Part shown: positions 9,551-62,615 of the stretch, in pieces
Layout: every line of letters begins with the position of its first letter
How positions within the stretch are numbered: position 1 is the first letter of the stretch
DNA from: Glutinoglossum americanum
Taxonomy: Eukaryota; Ascomycota; Geoglossomycetes; Geoglossales; Geoglossaceae
Length of the DNA: 64,000 nucleotides
Assembly: GCA_020080175.1 (NCBI GenBank)
Contig: JAGHQL010000054.1
Span: 62,001 to 126,000 of the forward strand
Reading direction: 5' to 3'
Notes under the pieces: generated by a model
The model's database searches: none
What the model was told of the DNA's origin: nothing
The model's input: only the letters and a program-made list of their open reading frames with translations
Made by a program: the position numbers and the translations under genes

Positions 9551-10670
9551 ATGTTTGCCATCGTTAAACTCCCACCCGCACCACCCACTCTTCTCAAGCA
9601 GTACCGGCGTAGCTCTACACCCCACCGGGATCTTCAATTACCATCAATTCCGACCACGAGGCGATGTCCTGCACCCAAGAGTGCCTGCGCGCCGACACCT
9701 TTGGGCCTAGACATCGACCACGAGAGGCCACTTAGCAACACCATGGCTGCGTATGTGCAGCAGGTGTTGATTTCAACCGGGAAGGATGACTGGACGAGCC
9801 GAATTGAGGAAGATGAGGAGGCAGGGGAATTGGTTCGCGGGTTGAGGAGATTATTAGGGAAAGGAGGCGCTCTTGCTGATGTAGGTTTTCGATCTTTTTG
9901 CGGACGGTACTTGTAAAATACTCTTTTGACCGTTGTTCTTTTATTCCGAAGCTTAGCAGAGTTAATGGGTGAGATTATTTCATCGATAGCCGTATAACAA
10001 CATCATGCTCTCGCACTGTTCGTTCTCTCCTTCGCCGGTTCCAACCCAAAAGTTCAAAACAGCATCAGCCTATATACTACCTTCCTTCCATTACCTCCCC
10101 TCCATCCCACTCACACCTCCCTCCATCGAAGAATTCACTCGTGCTTTTCTTCTCCCACCTACATTACACCTGGCCCACAAAGGCCTTCTCGCCTCTCAAA
10201 GACTCGCGTTCGTACAACAGCCCGAGCTACAATGCTCATGTCTGGGATCTCGTAGTGCCTCTGACATCCTGATCCTCATCTGCGGCCATCGCGGCCGCGA
10301 CAAGAGGTGTGGAGTCATGGGTCCGCTCCTTCGCGATGAGTTCGAACGTAGACTAAGCTCTATCGGCGTTTTCGAGGTGCTAAAGGATGCTCCCCCCGCA
10401 GAAACTCCACCGTGTATACCCGCAGCAAAACTAGGCGTCAGAGTTGGGTTGATTAGCCATGTCGGCGGCCACAAATTCGCTGGCAATGTAATCATCTACA
10501 TCCCACCATCACTGACGGCGAACGACCTGGCGGGAAAGGGAATCTGGTACGGAAGGGTTGAGCCAAGGCATGTAGAGGGAATTATTGAGGAGACAATTGT
10601 CAAAGGCAGGGTCATTGGCGAGCTGTTTAGGGGCGGAATTGATAAGGAGAGCCAAATTTTGAGGATGTGA
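9551..10670 (+). CDS. AIM32: Aim32/Apd1-family thioredoxin-like [2Fe-2S] protein
   Basis: Exons 9551-9880 and 9990-10670 (109-nt intron gtaggt...gatag) give 336 residues; the join reads GALAD-PYNNIML, matching the family. The N-terminal part carries the conserved ISTGKDDWTSRIE. The C-terminal domain has CGHRGRDKRCGVMGPLL with the paired cysteines, then GGHKFAGNVIIYIP and GIWYGRVEPRHVEGII, where the His residues are the proposed non-cysteine cluster ligands. Aim32 acts in yeast mitochondria in redox quality control of imported proteins. The first 30 residues are basic and could be a targeting signal. It shares a short bidirectional promoter with MTQ1. Confidence 0.88.
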
Positions 10671-11977
10671 GTCAAGTAACAACATCAGAACAGGAAAGTA
10701 GTGACGTCAGAAACACATCTCGACCCTCTTACTCACCGCCCTGAATTTCTCAATCCAGTAAAAAAGACCAAACATTATCAGATTCGCCTTGCCATGCAAG
10801 CCAAAAGTCCAATTTTCACACGGCATCCCCGACGCACATATACAAAGGGAATCTTTTCAGTCATTGATGCAGTCATTGATGTTTCGCCTTGGGAAAGCCT
10901 CATCATCGCTTCGACCACAGATATCAGATTGCATGTATCTGCCACGACTGCGGTTGGTGAAGCTCCCGCCCGTGTCGTAGCTATAGGTCCTTCGGAGGGG
11001 AAAAGAGTGGGCAAACGTAGAGAAATAAAAGCACGCGACGAGGCGAGAGATCGACACGCGTTCCGGTTTGGTTTTCGATTCGAGGGGATTTCAGCCTTCG
11101 GAGATGGGCGGCTCACATCATATAAATTTTTTCGCAATGGGGCACACCGCGTTGCAAACTCCATACTTTCCACACCATCACACACCATCACACACCATCA
11201 CACGATATAGTCTAGCCCAGGCGGAAGGGCGGTGGAAACTATGAAGCCTTTTCCGTTGGGCGGAGATTTTAATGATCCGACTGCACCAATAAAAATCGGA
11301 CAAATTCTTTATGGCCAGGTGAGGTGCACAGCCTCAACAGCTTCAACGGTGGCTTCCAGAGGTCTTCCACGCTTTTTTCCCAACCCCAGCTCGCTCACTG
11401 CTCTCTTCTTGGTATCTCAGCCGCCCCGCAGCGCCCACTCCACTCCCGTCCAAACAACCCCAGCCCTATCTCTCAATCCCAGCGTGAAACCCCCATAATA
11501 CCGGACTCCAGCCCTGACTACCCTGCCCTCGCTACGCACGCCTTCTCATCCGTTTGGCTCCGTTGCAGTTCGGCTGTGCGCGTCTACGAAGGCGAATACT
11601 AATCCAGTAATACTCTTCCAAAATTAGCCGGCGGTCAATCTAATATCCCCCTGTTGTGGAATATAATGGCATGGCCACAACCGGGGGACGCGGCTTACAT
11701 CAGTCAGAACAGAGCGTGGCGACGGTGTCGGTTCCTGGGCGTTGGGATTCGGTTGGCCGGTTCATAAGCCGCTGAGGGTGCGATCCTGGTTGTGACCCTG
11801 GTTGCGGCCGTTGCGTCCTGGTTGCCTTACTTTGTTCTTTTTTCGTAAGGCTGGCCTGAGCCCCGACTGCACCGCCGCCTGCCCCGGGGTGTTGTGACTC
11901 TTAGGCTATTCGAGGCTTAGGCATCTATTGCTTCAGTTTTCCCCATTGCTTATTGTCGTCCGTAGATTTTTTTGGCC
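10671..11977. other. Intergenic region with one orphan exon-like ORF and a 10-bp repeat
   Basis: Open frames at 10701-11210 (+) and 10778-11191 (-) overlap and are unrecognised. A decanucleotide CACACCATCA is repeated three times at 11171-11203. The only exon-like piece is described separately at 11241-11318. From 11640 the DNA is GC-rich and turns pyrimidine-rich towards the TATA box at 11978. Confidence 0.4.
11241..11318 (+). CDS. Possible short first exon, 26 codons, unrecognised
   Basis: An ATG is followed by 26 open codons (MKPFPLGGDFNDPTAPIKIG and six more) ending exactly at a good donor, CAG/gtgagg, in phase 0. The residues read like coding sequence rather than noise. Several CAG acceptors follow within 150 bp but I cannot choose the next exon, so no gene model is offered. 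The FPLG...DP...PI pattern reminds me of N-termini of several fungal accessory proteins, but I cannot name a family. Confidence 0.25.
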
Positions 11978-11985
11978 TATATATA
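11978..11985 (+). promoter_or_regulatory. TATA box upstream of the micro-ORF unit
   Basis: TATATATA stands alone in GC-balanced DNA and is followed after about 30-80 bp by CA-rich sequence (CACCAACAAGCCACAACACC region, 12026-12060), the pattern seen at start sites of strongly transcribed fungal genes. It would place a transcription start near 12010-12030, giving a leader of about 300 nt before the first micro-ORF. Confidence 0.5.
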
Positions 11986-12326
11986 CGGTCGAAAGGTTTC
12001 ACCTGAGACAATCTCCCATTCTCATCACCAACAAGCCACAACACCAGAACAACCACAGCAAGGATATCCAATCGCAAACCCGGACGACCTCCCTCCTCGA
12101 TTCGCTTTATTCTACTTTGAGCATCCCAATTGCATTGCATTTATAGCAAACGAGGTCGTCTCCAAACATCACCAAGCGATAAACCCGATCCCTCAAGCTA
12201 TTCACAAGAGAAGTTCCATTTCAGACTCTCATCGAATCTTCGCTTTTAGTTTCTCGTCTCGCATCTCTGTCTCTCAATCTCTCTATATCTACCTTAACCC
12301 TCCTACACAATCTTCAATTCTCTCTC

Positions 12327-12350
12327 ATGGGCCGGGGCGGATACAACTAA
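12327..12350 (+). CDS. Micro-ORF 1 of five: heptapeptide MGRGGYN
   Basis: Seven codons and TAA encode MGRGGYN. It is preceded by a CT-rich tract (TCAATTCTCTCTC) that is also found before copy 2, so these two copies share some flanking duplication. The reading frame is coordinate class 0 modulo 3. The start has G at +4 but C at -3, a weak context. Function unknown; see findings for the array. Confidence 0.6.
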   Translation: MGRGGYN

Positions 12351-12514
12351 ATCCACCGCCAGAAGAAGAGAAAAAACCATATACCCCTCTGCACGTCATC
12401 AAAGACACAGAAAGACATCTCGCATCCCTGCCTCTCTACTTTGTTTCCGCTTCGTTTCTTATACCGCTTCGTCATCATCACCGTCATCCGTCATCATCAA
12501 TTTCTCTATCTCTC

Positions 12515-12538
12515 ATGGGCCGGGGCGGATACAATTGA
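12515..12538 (+). CDS. Micro-ORF 2 of five: heptapeptide MGRGGYN
   Basis: Seven codons and TGA encode MGRGGYN; it differs from copy 1 only at the Asn third base and the stop codon. Frame class 2 modulo 3. The upstream TTTCTCTATCTCTC and the downstream GCAGAAGAAAAGAGG resemble those around copy 1. G at +4, C at -3. Confidence 0.6.
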   Translation: MGRGGYN

Positions 12539-12633
12539 CAGCTTCCACTTGCAGAAGAAAAGAGGATATTTCTCTCTTGACGAAAGAAGACAGGCAGGCA
12601 CACACCTAGCAAACATACCAACACCAGACTTCA

Positions 12634-12657
12634 ATGGGCAGAGGCGGCTACAACTAA
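12634..12657 (+). CDS. Micro-ORF 3 of five: heptapeptide MGRGGYN
   Basis: Seven codons and TAA encode MGRGGYN with AGA for Arg where copies 1 and 2 use CGG, and GGC for the last Gly. Frame class 1 modulo 3, so this copy cannot be part of the same frame as its neighbours. Flanks are unlike those of copies 1 and 2. Confidence 0.6.
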   Translation: MGRGGYN

Positions 12658-12689
12658 GCCAACGAACACCAAGACAAACAATCTTCCAG

Positions 12690-12713
12690 ATGGGTAGAGG
12701 CGGTTACAACTAA
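12690..12713 (+). CDS. Micro-ORF 4 of five: heptapeptide MGRGGYN
   Basis: Seven codons and TAA encode MGRGGYN using GGT, AGA, GGC and GGT for the Gly-Arg-Gly-Gly core. Frame class 0 modulo 3. It starts only 32 nt after the stop of copy 3, the shortest gap in the array, and its ATG directly follows a CAG that could also act as a splice acceptor. Confidence 0.6.
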   Translation: MGRGGYN

Positions 12714-12760
12714 AGCCCCCACCGGTACACCAAACGAAAATCTCCACTCTTGGATACAGT

Positions 12761-12784
12761 ATGGACCGAGGGGGCTACAATTGA
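12761..12784 (+). CDS. Micro-ORF 5 of five: heptapeptide MDRGGYN
   Basis: Seven codons and TGA encode MDRGGYN, the only copy with an amino-acid change (Gly2 to Asp). Arg is CGA and the next Gly GGG, so the codons again differ from all other copies. Frame class 2 modulo 3. A at -3 and G at +4 give it the best start context of the five. The next ATG, at 12811, lies 26 nt downstream. Confidence 0.55.
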   Translation: MDRGGYN

Positions 12785-12810
12785 GCATCGACATTTTTTA
12801 GAATTCAACC

Positions 12811-13869
12811 ATGGCACACGTTAGACGGCAAAAATATACACGCAGGAAGGGCGGTGGTGATGGGCGCGCGCCGCTGGGAGGCGAGCGCCCATCAGGGGTG
12901 GGGGGTGGGGGATGTGGAGTTTCCTTTATTCAACTGTTTCACATCGGTTTTAGATTTGTTTTCCAGCGGGCATTTTACATTGGATCTCAAAAGTATTGTT
13001 TCCTTCCTTCTGTTGTTTTTCAGCGAGCGATCCCTGAGGTTTCCCAAAAGTCCTGTTTCCCTTTTGTTTTTCAGCGAGCGCCTGTCTTTGTTTCACAAAA
13101 GTTTTGTTTTCATTCTAGATTTCCTACTGTTGCATTCCCTATAGACCTTCTTTTTGTTGTATTAGTATTAGAAGAGGGGAGGCGGAGGCGGAGGCGGTGG
13201 CGGCGGAGACGAAGAGGCATAGCCGGATTCGCCGCGAAGGTTCCGTTGGCGGAGACTTCGAATCTTATTTTATTCCCCGCCTTCAATCAATCATTTCCCG
13301 ACGCAAAACCTATAAAAACCACGGCAAAGCCAATTTCGCCGGGGGTCAGTGACTGGTATTTCCGGATTCGGCGGCATTCGGAAAGATGCGCCAACATTGG
13401 AAAAAAACAAAAGAACTTCAACCAGAACAGTAGCATGACAGACTCACTTCTCAAAAACAACCCCCAACACTTCCTCCACATCCCCCGCTTCCCCACGTCC
13501 AGTGATCCGCGCAAGACATTCCGCAGCTGCACGCAGGCTCTCCGCCGCGAGCACAATATCAATCTCTTCCCCACCACGCCCCCCGGAAACCCGCGGGTTA
13601 CCCTCAACTACAGGAGCCGACGTAACAACCCCAATAAACTCATCCAAATGCCACAGACACTCGTCCAGAAGAACCCTCTGCCGCTCCGTCGCACCGAGGG
13701 CCTCCTGGTAATCCTCCAGAAGCCCTCCACCATCCACCCCAACCGCCTCCGTCATGTCCTTAAACTTCCTCACCAACCCCCCCAGAAACGCCTGGATGCC
13801 ACCAGGATCCCCCCCGTCCTTCGCATCGGCATCGTGGGCGCGCTTGCAGGAGATAGGGAAGATCTCTGA
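12811..13869 (+). CDS. Candidate main ORF downstream of the micro-ORFs; VFQRA/SQK/CF repeats; 3' end uncertain
   Basis: The ATG sits in ACCATGG, an ideal start context. The frame opens with a basic Gly-rich stretch (MAHVRRQKYTRRKGGGDG), then from residue 50 holds three copies of VFQRA-x4/5-SQK-x-CF, then an Arg-rich run (GRRRRRRWRRRRRG). The frame is open to 13869, but after 13291 it runs antisense to MnmE, so the real protein probably ends earlier by splicing or polyadenylation that I cannot locate. No family is recognised. Support is the start context, the position after the array, and that base changes between repeat units fall at synonymous third positions in this frame. It may still be untranslated RNA. 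Confidence 0.35.
   Translation: MAHVRRQKYTRRKGGGDGRAPLGGERPSGVGGGGCGVSFIQLFHIGFRFVFQRAFYIGSQKYCFLPSVVFQRAIPEVSQKSCFPFVFQRAPVFVSQKFCFHSRFPTVAFPIDLLFVVLVLEEGRRRRRRWRRRRRGIAGFAAKVPLAETSNLILFPAFNQSFPDAKPIKTTAKPISPGVSDWYFRIRRHSERCANIGKKQKNFNQNSSMTDSLLKNNPQHFLHIPRFPTSSDPRKTFRSCTQALRREHNINLFPTTPPGNPRVTLNYRSRRNNPNKLIQMPQTLVQKNPLPLRRTEGLLVILQKPSTIHPNRLRHVLKLPHQPPQKRLDATRIPPVLRIGIVGALAGDREDL
12958..13119 (+). repeat. Three degenerate tandem units of 57, 51 and 54 bp
   Basis: Units at 12958-13014, 13015-13065 and 13066-13119 each begin GTTTT(C/T)CAGCG and contain CAAAAG...TGTTT. The first two lengths are multiples of three, so the frame of the ORF starting at 12811 is kept. Each unit start also looks like a 3' splice site (T-rich tract, CAG). 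Confidence 0.7.
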
Positions 13870-60256: not shown

Positions 60257-62615
60257 ATGACAGAACCTGGACCAAAGCCGCCGACCCTACCGGCTTCAGG
60301 GTCTTGGAGAACAATGCGAAAGGGAACGCAGAGCTGCACCGAGTGTGAGGCCCAACCTAAACCCGTATATCAAATGTCCTTCTGGTATTCCCTAGACTTA
60401 GCTCGTCCGCATCCGCCCAGCGGCGGAACCCTATCTTTCCTGGTCAATACCCCCCATTGTCGTACTTCTGACTTTTACTGCGATACTAGGTCGGCGGCGG
60501 AAGATTCGCTGCAACCTCGTGCCCGGAAAATCTACATGTTCGCCATGTTCGGTCCGTGGCTCCCGATGTGTTGATCAGCGAGACGAGAACTATGCCATCG
60601 CCGAGAAGGAGAGGGTTACGCTGCGGGAGCGCGTTGCTCGCCTCGAGTCACTCCTAGGGAGCAAACTACAAGTAGCGTCGGGGGAGCGCTATCAAGATGC
60701 CCGACCATTAAATTTATTTCCTAGTACGGCTGAAACCTCAGACATTGGAGCCCCAGTTAGTGGAGCAGACCACCGGGCTCCATTTGTTTCCGTTCTCGGC
60801 GATGCCGAGGTAAATGTCTTCACTGTATTGTATCTAACGAACTTTAGTGGATTGACTGATTCCTCCAGTTGCTATGGCCGCCGAGCTCTGGAGCTGACGA
60901 GACTTCCGAGATGCAAGCACCCCCAACTCCCATTGGTTCTGCGAACCCCCCCAGTGGTATCTCTCCGCTATTTCAGCTCTCTGAGCAGAAGACCAAATAC
61001 GTGTGCGAGACGCTGCGCTCCGCGCTCCCAGTTTATGATACCATCATGTCGACTTTGTCGAAGAACGGAGCCTGGTGGAGCAGCTTCCGCTACAAGACCC
61101 ATGCCATTTCCCAGACGCCCGTTGAGGCACTTGCTGCGTTCGCTGCGCGCTCCTACACTAGTAGCAATCCCGCAGAACTAGGCATCCTCGTTGCCGCCTA
61201 TGCTCGTAGCTCGAACCAAAATCACCTCTATGCTATTGTTGACAGCCTAGTTATCTCGGATTCTGCATATTTGGCTACGACGGAGGGCATGGAGTGCCTA
61301 ATCCTGCTGGCCAAATCATACACTGATATTGGACAACCACGACGGGCTTGGTTTATGTACCGTAGGGGCATGGCGATCGCACAACTAATGGTCCGAGTCG
61401 TATCTTACACTCTATCATAGAAATCACTACTAACGCTACATAAAGGGTCTATACCGCAGAGATGCAGATTCTCTCAGCCAGAAGATGATTTGGTGGACTG
61501 TGTATCACGGAGACCGTTTCACCAGCTTGCTTCTTGGCCTCCCATACGGGTTTAACGATGCTCACTATGGCCCTATCATGGGTGTGATGGCAGAGGAATC
61601 AGGGTCCTGGGAGCAGCAATTTATCCTTCGATGCGCCTTCATTGTGGGAAAAGTCATAGACCGGAATGTCATGCCCAGCAAACCACCCTTTGCCGGCACC
61701 GTGGATCTGGATGAGCAAATGGACGCGATTGCCGCTTCCACACCAGAAAGTTGGTGGGATACACCAGCCGAACTCCCTGGTCCTGGCCCTGAGCTCGACC
61801 AGATCAGAGAGCGTCTGCTGCAGCAGTTTTACTTCTTCTACGTCAGGATCCACCTGCATCTGCCATTTATAGTTAAATCACCGACGACTTCCCCATACGA
61901 CGTCAGCAGACTTGCATGTTTGGAAGCTTCTCGCCAAATGCTGAGGCGGTTTGTAATACTTCATGCCGAAGTCCAAGGAGCGTGTCTCTTCGAGTGCAAG
62001 ACGAGTGACTTTGTCGGCTTCATGGCCGCTGTTGTCCTACTCCTCGGACTATCTAGTCCGAGCGACATGCCTAATCTACGGAAATCCGACGAAGACTTGC
62101 GCCTGGTTGCGTCTATGGACAGGATTTTGCACAAGGAGGAGAGGGAGAAGGGATGCAAGATCGCGTCTCAATGCCGGAAGACGCTCCAGATGCTCTCGGG
62201 CACCCAGGATGACGGTCCCCGCAACGCCGATTCGTTCGCCGAACCGCAAAAGATCGTGATTCCGTACTTCGGCAACGTGCTGCGAAGGCGCGTGAAACGG
62301 GCCCCTGCGCAGACTCTTTCGGGCAATGCCCACAGCAGCAGCCACGGCACCCCCTCTCCTCCCTCAGCGCTGCTAGAACCGGCCACTAGCTCTACGACAG
62401 AGGAGCAGGATTCCCTGGCGGATGCGCACACTATCGAGTATGGAGGCTGCAGTCCGCCAAATTCCTCATGGGGCAGCACGCACTGGGAGGCGGACAGCTT
62501 CGGCAACTTCCCTACAGACGGTCTATCTCCGTGGCCGGATGTGGCTATGATGGATGTTGATCAGGACTGGAGCTTGTTTCTGGACACGTACGGCGATTCC
62601 TTGGGAGGCGTTTAA
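60257..62615 (+). CDS. Zn2Cys6 transcription factor with fungal-TF domain
   Basis: Exons 60257-60344, 60490-60809, 60869-61390 and 61446-62615 encode 699 residues. Joining exons 1 and 2 rebuilds the binuclear zinc cluster CTECRRRKIRC-NLVPGKSTCSPCSVRGSRC with six cysteines. A short coiled coil follows (EKERVTLRERVARLESLL). The middle-homology/fungal-specific TF domain spans about residues 220-480, with LILLAKSYTDIGQPRRAWFM, IWWTVYHGDRFTSLLLGLPY. The C-terminus is acidic and aromatic (DVAMMDVDQDWSLFLDTYGD), likely an activation region. Intron 3's donor (gtccga) is weak; using gtatct 12 nt later adds four residues in frame. The divergent SDR gene is its most likely local target. Confidence 0.88.

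Follow-up and report, generated by a model that had tools for sequence, protein, structure and literature searches.

The 2.8-kb interval described here contains no recognised gene and lies in a 64-kb stretch (positions 62001–126000 of contig C268) of the DNA of Glutinoglossum americanum, an earth tongue of the class Geoglossomycetes, hereafter the window; the complete assembly of this fungus (25.8 Mb in 317 contigs) provided the whole-genome search space. Upstream of the interval, on the + strand, is a gene with a Pfam match to Suc_Fer-like proteins, which we take to be AIM32 and whose last ORF ends at position 10670. Downstream, in convergent orientation on the − strand, is MSS1, which carries TrmE/MnmE domains and has its ORF end at 13444; beyond it lie a Mak16 ORF and then an ORF with an Mso1 domain, both recognised with Pfam. 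In a protein search the 477-residue MSS1 query was 100% identical to FGG08_003177 of G. americanum. Among the 120 best of 7991 matches, the next named organisms were Geoglossum umbratile (75% identity) and Cryomyces minteri (62%), and the same 120 included a protein of Trichoglossum hirsutum and one from JGI, each covering 87% of the query, at 69% and 82% identity respectively. The two ORFs of the interval that were scanned (10701–11210 and 12811–13869) gave no Pfam match, and a search of plasmids with positions 12000–13000 retrieved nothing. At 10855–10910 on the − strand there is a weak match to the snoRNA family sR7, whose 19 bits fall below the gathering score of 37.

Within this interval the + strand carries five ATG-to-stop ORFs of seven codons each, spread over three reading frames. 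The first (12327..12350, stop TAA), second (12515..12538, stop TGA), third (12634..12657, stop TAA) and fourth (12690..12713, stop TAA) all encode the heptapeptide MGRGGYN, and the fifth (12761..12784, stop TGA) encodes MDRGGYN. Successive micro-ORFs are separated by spacers of 164, 95, 32 and 47 nt. The first-pass annotation of this DNA had reported four copies of the one peptide and one of the other, and the place, peptides, codons, stops and use of all three frames were verified in every respect.

The only ATGs on the + strand between 11674 and 12810 are the starts of the five units. Such scarcity is not in itself rare, since 506 of 9636 overlapping 1137-nt windows hold at most five ATGs, and just 3.1 ATGs would be expected in the spacers from their dinucleotide composition. 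The part ahead of the array, 11674–12326, is entirely free of + strand ATGs; only 7 of 7602 ATG-free runs, this one included, reach at least 650 nt in a non-random 264-kb sample that joins the window to the opening 10 kb of each of contigs C1–C20. A candidate core promoter of the TATA type, TATATATA, is located at 11978..11985 (+), and is followed by a presumed 5′ leader, rich in C, T and A and devoid of ATG, which would extend from a putative start at 12010 to 12326. The ATG-free stretch following TATATATA looks like a fungal leader. Three other candidate explanations were rejected. That the unit might be the C-terminal exon of a longer protein is contradicted by the open frame running from 11972 to 12538, into unit 2, which has no homologue among 57 candidates; the residues preceding the methionine are not conserved over the five units, units 1 and 2 having SL in common. 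A spliced main gene was discarded because scans for donors and branch points revealed no GTRNGT donor in 11980–13445 and no branch-point match past 12811. A structured RNA was likewise dismissed: the stretch 12010–12810 folds no better than its shuffles (z −0.3), no Rfam match was obtained in the array at E≤1, and the lone sub-threshold sR7 match falls outside it.

When the whole genome was searched with the unit pattern at no more than one mismatch, exactly five matches were retrieved, namely the array itself, and none was present on the other strand or with a reversed control pattern. The looser search with up to two mismatches added four matches in three contigs, against 11 for the reversed control, and no second array was found among these four. 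With up to three mismatches the window contains five matches where 0.08 are expected, and at least five were obtained in 0 of 100 shuffles. In addition, 60 sequences of 64 kb were simulated with an order-2 Markov model and scanned on both strands; none contained an identical pair of micropeptides of 5–40 aa within 1 kb. A chance origin of the array was rejected on the basis of these simulations and shuffles. The possibility that the unit represents the N-terminus of a longer gene elsewhere was also rejected, since the 21-nt pattern without the stop, at no more than one mismatch, adds to the five units just one match, which lacks the ATG. Outside this genome, a DNA pattern that also allows Ser in place of Arg matched viral contigs three times and bacterial or archaeal genome contigs three times, always singly and in each case with one MGRGGYN and two MGSGGYN. 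A second unit was absent from all six stretches fetched from these viral, bacterial and archaeal collections, to which fungal relatives do not belong, and the pattern for MDRGGYN had no match in the viral contigs.

A scan of the 264-kb sample for micropeptides of exactly identical sequence yielded one cluster of four, which is the array, and six pairs, five of which are in the first 10 kb of contig C4 (G000:C4:1-10000, here L017). Allowing about 20% residue differences, other clusters of at least three were found in this sample only on the two strands of L017. This segment contains long-period tandem repeats, beginning at about position 66 of the + strand and about position 2766 of the reverse strand, and each strand has its own set of similar micro-ORFs: as many as eight of 15 residues on one, five of 11 residues on the other. 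The micro-ORFs of L017 keep to a single frame per strand and their residues vary freely, as in an ordinary long-period repeat, whereas the heptapeptide array occupies three frames and its conservation is mostly limited to the ORF. An ordinary tandem repeat was therefore rejected as an explanation of the array: beyond units 1 and 2 little is shared outside about 24 nt, three frames are used, and L017 behaves otherwise.

Alignment of the five copies shows that 16 of the 24 columns of the unit are invariant and eight are variable. Seven of the latter are silent, including a coupled CGG/AGA exchange for arginine and the TAA/TGA alternation of stops, and the sole residue change is Gly2 to Asp in unit 5; the earlier statement that the differences are mostly synonymous is thus confirmed. 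Counting every single change possible in codons 2–8, 22–27% are silent (33–38% for transitions alone), and the binomial probability of seven silent columns in eight is 0.0004–0.0013 for a silent share of 25–30% and 0.0036–0.0085 for one of 35–40%. Of 400000 runs of a neutral star simulation, 297 ended with all five ORFs intact and no more than one residue changed. By codon position the variable columns are distributed 1/2/5, a modest skew (P 0.047). The counts of silent changes are partly circular, because the shared peptide was what drew notice to the units in the first place. The same alignment bears on the idea that the 24-nt units are nucleic-acid elements, such as binding sites for proteins on DNA or RNA, which would make their reading as ORFs incidental. 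The 16 invariant columns and the intergenic, C-rich setting are consistent with such elements; the silence of seven of the eight variable columns, with the coupled CGG to AGA and TAA to TGA exchanges among them, and the unremarkable folding and empty Rfam search described above argue against them, and we consider this explanation clearly improbable.

The spacers had been described in the first-pass annotation as mostly unrelated, which is correct for most flanks, but probably not for those of units 1 and 2. The latter two units belong to a probable duplicated block (12257–12395 versus 12418–12582). In an alignment of its flanks 86 columns match, 24 are mismatched and 35 carry gaps. The units themselves are identical at 22 of 24 positions when aligned without gaps, the two differing bases being silent, although local alignment places one gap column inside the unit. 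As good a similarity was reached in 0 of 300 shuffles for the downstream flank and in 12 of 300 for the upstream one, so that an origin of the block by duplication is likely, though not proven. Weaker hints of related flanks were obtained downstream of units 3 and 4 (7 of 300 shuffles as good), upstream of units 4 and 5 (3 of 300) and upstream of units 1 and 4 (12 of 300). The remaining pairs of flanks have little in common, a sign that the copies may be of some age. Local duplications of a single micro-ORF that arose by chance could in principle have generated the array in a neutral burst, as the probable relatedness of the flanks of units 1 and 2, the weaker hints just mentioned and the confinement of the comparison to one genome would allow. 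However, the slight resemblance of the other flanks points to old copies. None of the five has nevertheless lost its ORF, and scanning the window with a weight matrix revealed no decayed sixth copy, the next best site scoring 17.0 bits against 30.9–34.6 for the five units. The L017 repeat, by contrast, carries many residue changes. We therefore regard a neutral burst as very improbable.

Selection on the peptide, proposed in the first-pass annotation, is suggested by the silent variation, the lack of a decayed copy in the window, the ATG-free spacers and the diverged flanks, all of these being patterns within one genome. The proposal stands to that extent. Less circular than the silent counts are the absence of decayed copies, the divergence of the flanks of units 1 and 2 and the limitation of ATGs to the unit starts.

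Downstream of the array, 26 bases past the stop of the last micro-ORF, begins an ORF of 352 codons (12811..13869, +) in the context caaccATGGC. It may be a cistron, either a sixth one or the main one, or may be open by chance. From 13444 on it is antisense to the end of MSS1. Its 211 codons up to 13443 remain open in 2 of 2000 dinucleotide shuffles (4 of 2000 if any frame is considered); by comparison, at least 211 open codons follow 283 of the 7274 ATGs in the 264-kb sample, which includes real genes. No homologue was found among 2009 candidates at E≤10, and a search of the genome at E≤1 gave no paralogue; since the homologue search returned no copy of the ORF itself, it is probably unannotated. 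Codon usage, scored after training on 39 long ORFs, separates known genes only weakly and does not decide on ORF 12811, because known genes score low here too. The ORF includes an arginine run encoded by a short GAGGCG repeat, as well as three imperfect direct repeats in its frame (12955..13116, +, spaced by 57 and 51 nt; VFQRA....SQKxCF). Stretches of TTTTTCAG within these repeats resemble splice acceptors. Near the start of the ORF there is a GC-rich inverted repeat (12858..12894, +) with 15-nt arms that are 93% complementary and separated by a 7-nt gap; the region 12785–12930 folds with z −2.1, 4 of 200 shuffles being equally good. The inverted repeat is followed by a G-rich run to 12911 (GGGGTGGGGGGTGGGGG); the whole, at 12858–12911, might form a G-quadruplex or some structured 3′ element.

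ORF 12811 is central to the possibility that the five units form a peptide-dependent uORF leader, in which MGRGGYN would act in cis to slow or release ribosomes and thereby control translation of this ORF, or RNA stability through nonsense-mediated decay, with the copies acting additively. Its start shortly after the last unit, in the context given above, would suit a main ORF, as would its openness beyond shuffle expectation. The AUG-poor spacers fit a uORF leader equally well. The variable columns of the three in-frame repeats fall 3/5/10 by codon position (P 0.012), which favours a coding sequence, but over 51 nt the differences between the second and third repeats fall 3/6/6, and the arginine run stems from a simple repeat. 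Units 1–4 have C, C, T and C at position −3 and unit 5 has A; the lack of a purine there makes leaky scanning plausible and is expected of leaky uORFs. The comparison is weak, however, given that the preference is unclear in this genome, where 22 of 38 long ORFs have a purine at −3 of their first ATG, against 54% of all ATGs. Against the leader also count the missing homologue, Pfam domain and paralogue of ORF 12811 and its antisense overlap with MSS1 from 13444. Taken together, we judge a leader of this kind, the main rival of the peptide-gene reading, rather unlikely. For the same reasons, namely the want of a homologue, Pfam domain and paralogue and the antisense course into MSS1, a peptide gene accounts for the locus somewhat better.

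Our preferred reading of the locus, which we hold with about even confidence, is an intronless polycistronic micropeptide gene that would give rise to five free heptapeptides from one transcript. The candidate TATA promoter near 11978 would drive a single transcript with a long AUG-free leader, and scanning ribosomes would encounter solely the five unit AUGs ahead of 12811. Each seven-codon ORF would separately yield free MGRGGYN or, from the last, MDRGGYN. Seven codons are short enough to permit reinitiation, and leaky scanning and reinitiation could together distribute translation across the five units, so that copy number would serve as a dosage device. The ORFs leave no room for a signal sequence, and the peptide would consequently act inside the cell. 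By analogy with the Pri peptides of insects, which have reportedly been linked to Ubr3 and the proteasome, it may be a small intracellular ligand, perhaps of a degradation or signalling protein. By the N-terminal rules, methionine would be removed from the first four peptides, leaving Gly in first place, and Met-Asp would be kept in the fifth.

That five near-identical peptides are spelled with different codons suggests that the peptide is made and important, and genes of seven codons evade ordinary annotation. A free heptapeptide would rank with the shortest peptides that a eukaryotic gene encodes. Were the units translated and selected, the range of repeated-micropeptide genes would reach beyond insects into fungi, the array would illustrate how small a gene product under selection can be, and it would provide a compact, natural means of testing how eukaryotic ribosomes handle five consecutive AUGs on one mRNA. 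MGRGGYN was not found in the open-licence papers searched. Among the matches listed from open-licence titles and the beginnings of abstracts, we found no fungal micropeptide under GRGGYN or RGGYN and no description of a repeated-micropeptide gene in a fungus; subscription journals lie mostly outside this corpus, and the novelty of the array is provisional.

In the GCN4 leader the number and spacing of uORFs matter and no single peptide is known to be repeated, while MAGDIS of AdoMetDC is an upstream peptide whose sequence matters; both MAGDIS and the arginine attenuator peptide occur in single copy ahead of a conserved metabolic gene. The array resembles the leaders of GCN4, cpc-1 and cpcA in having multiple short ORFs in what would be a fungal mRNA leader (PMC11550727), but it repeats one peptide and no recognised main ORF follows. 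The same text describes the arginine attenuator as a short upstream peptide with sequence importance (PMC11550727), which is a further likeness; unlike that uORF and MAGDIS, the array has five copies and no conserved metabolic gene. Two other reports indicate that fungal mRNA can encode more than one protein (PMC4503453) and describe a short intergenic sequence that is said to mediate re-initiation in fungal polycistronic mRNA (PMC10352335). The messages described there join ordinary genes, whereas the array repeats one micropeptide.

The general hallmark of polycistronic micropeptide genes, a repeated short peptide in separate ORFs within one short stretch, is present in the array. The midge tarsal-less/mlpt gene carries LDPTGXY repeats: the peptides that contain them have 11, 10, 11 and 29 aa, the spacers measure 111, 126 and 334 nt, and a 39-aa ORF follows (PMC6124123). 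The array peptides MGRGGYN and MDRGGYN lack the LDPTGXY motif, and the GREETSSCRRRR domain given in that text (PMC6124123) was not found in the translation of ORF 12811 or in the three + frames of 12785–13445. The array differs further in its peptide, which has only seven residues, in its fungal host and in the repetition of the whole ORF. It shares with tarsal-less, polished rice and mille-pattes several separate short ORFs that repeat one motif and precede a longer, different one, on a transcript that is here predicted from sequence. The array thus resembles tarsal-less in layout and is not a member of that family. Because in tarsal-less, too, a different and longer ORF comes last (PMC6124123), a peptide gene and a leader are not mutually exclusive. 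The locus may accordingly be viewed, with confidence a shade short of even, as the equivalent, in a fungus, of the polycistronic micropeptide genes of insects, independent in origin and comprising five copies and a possible sixth cistron at 12811.
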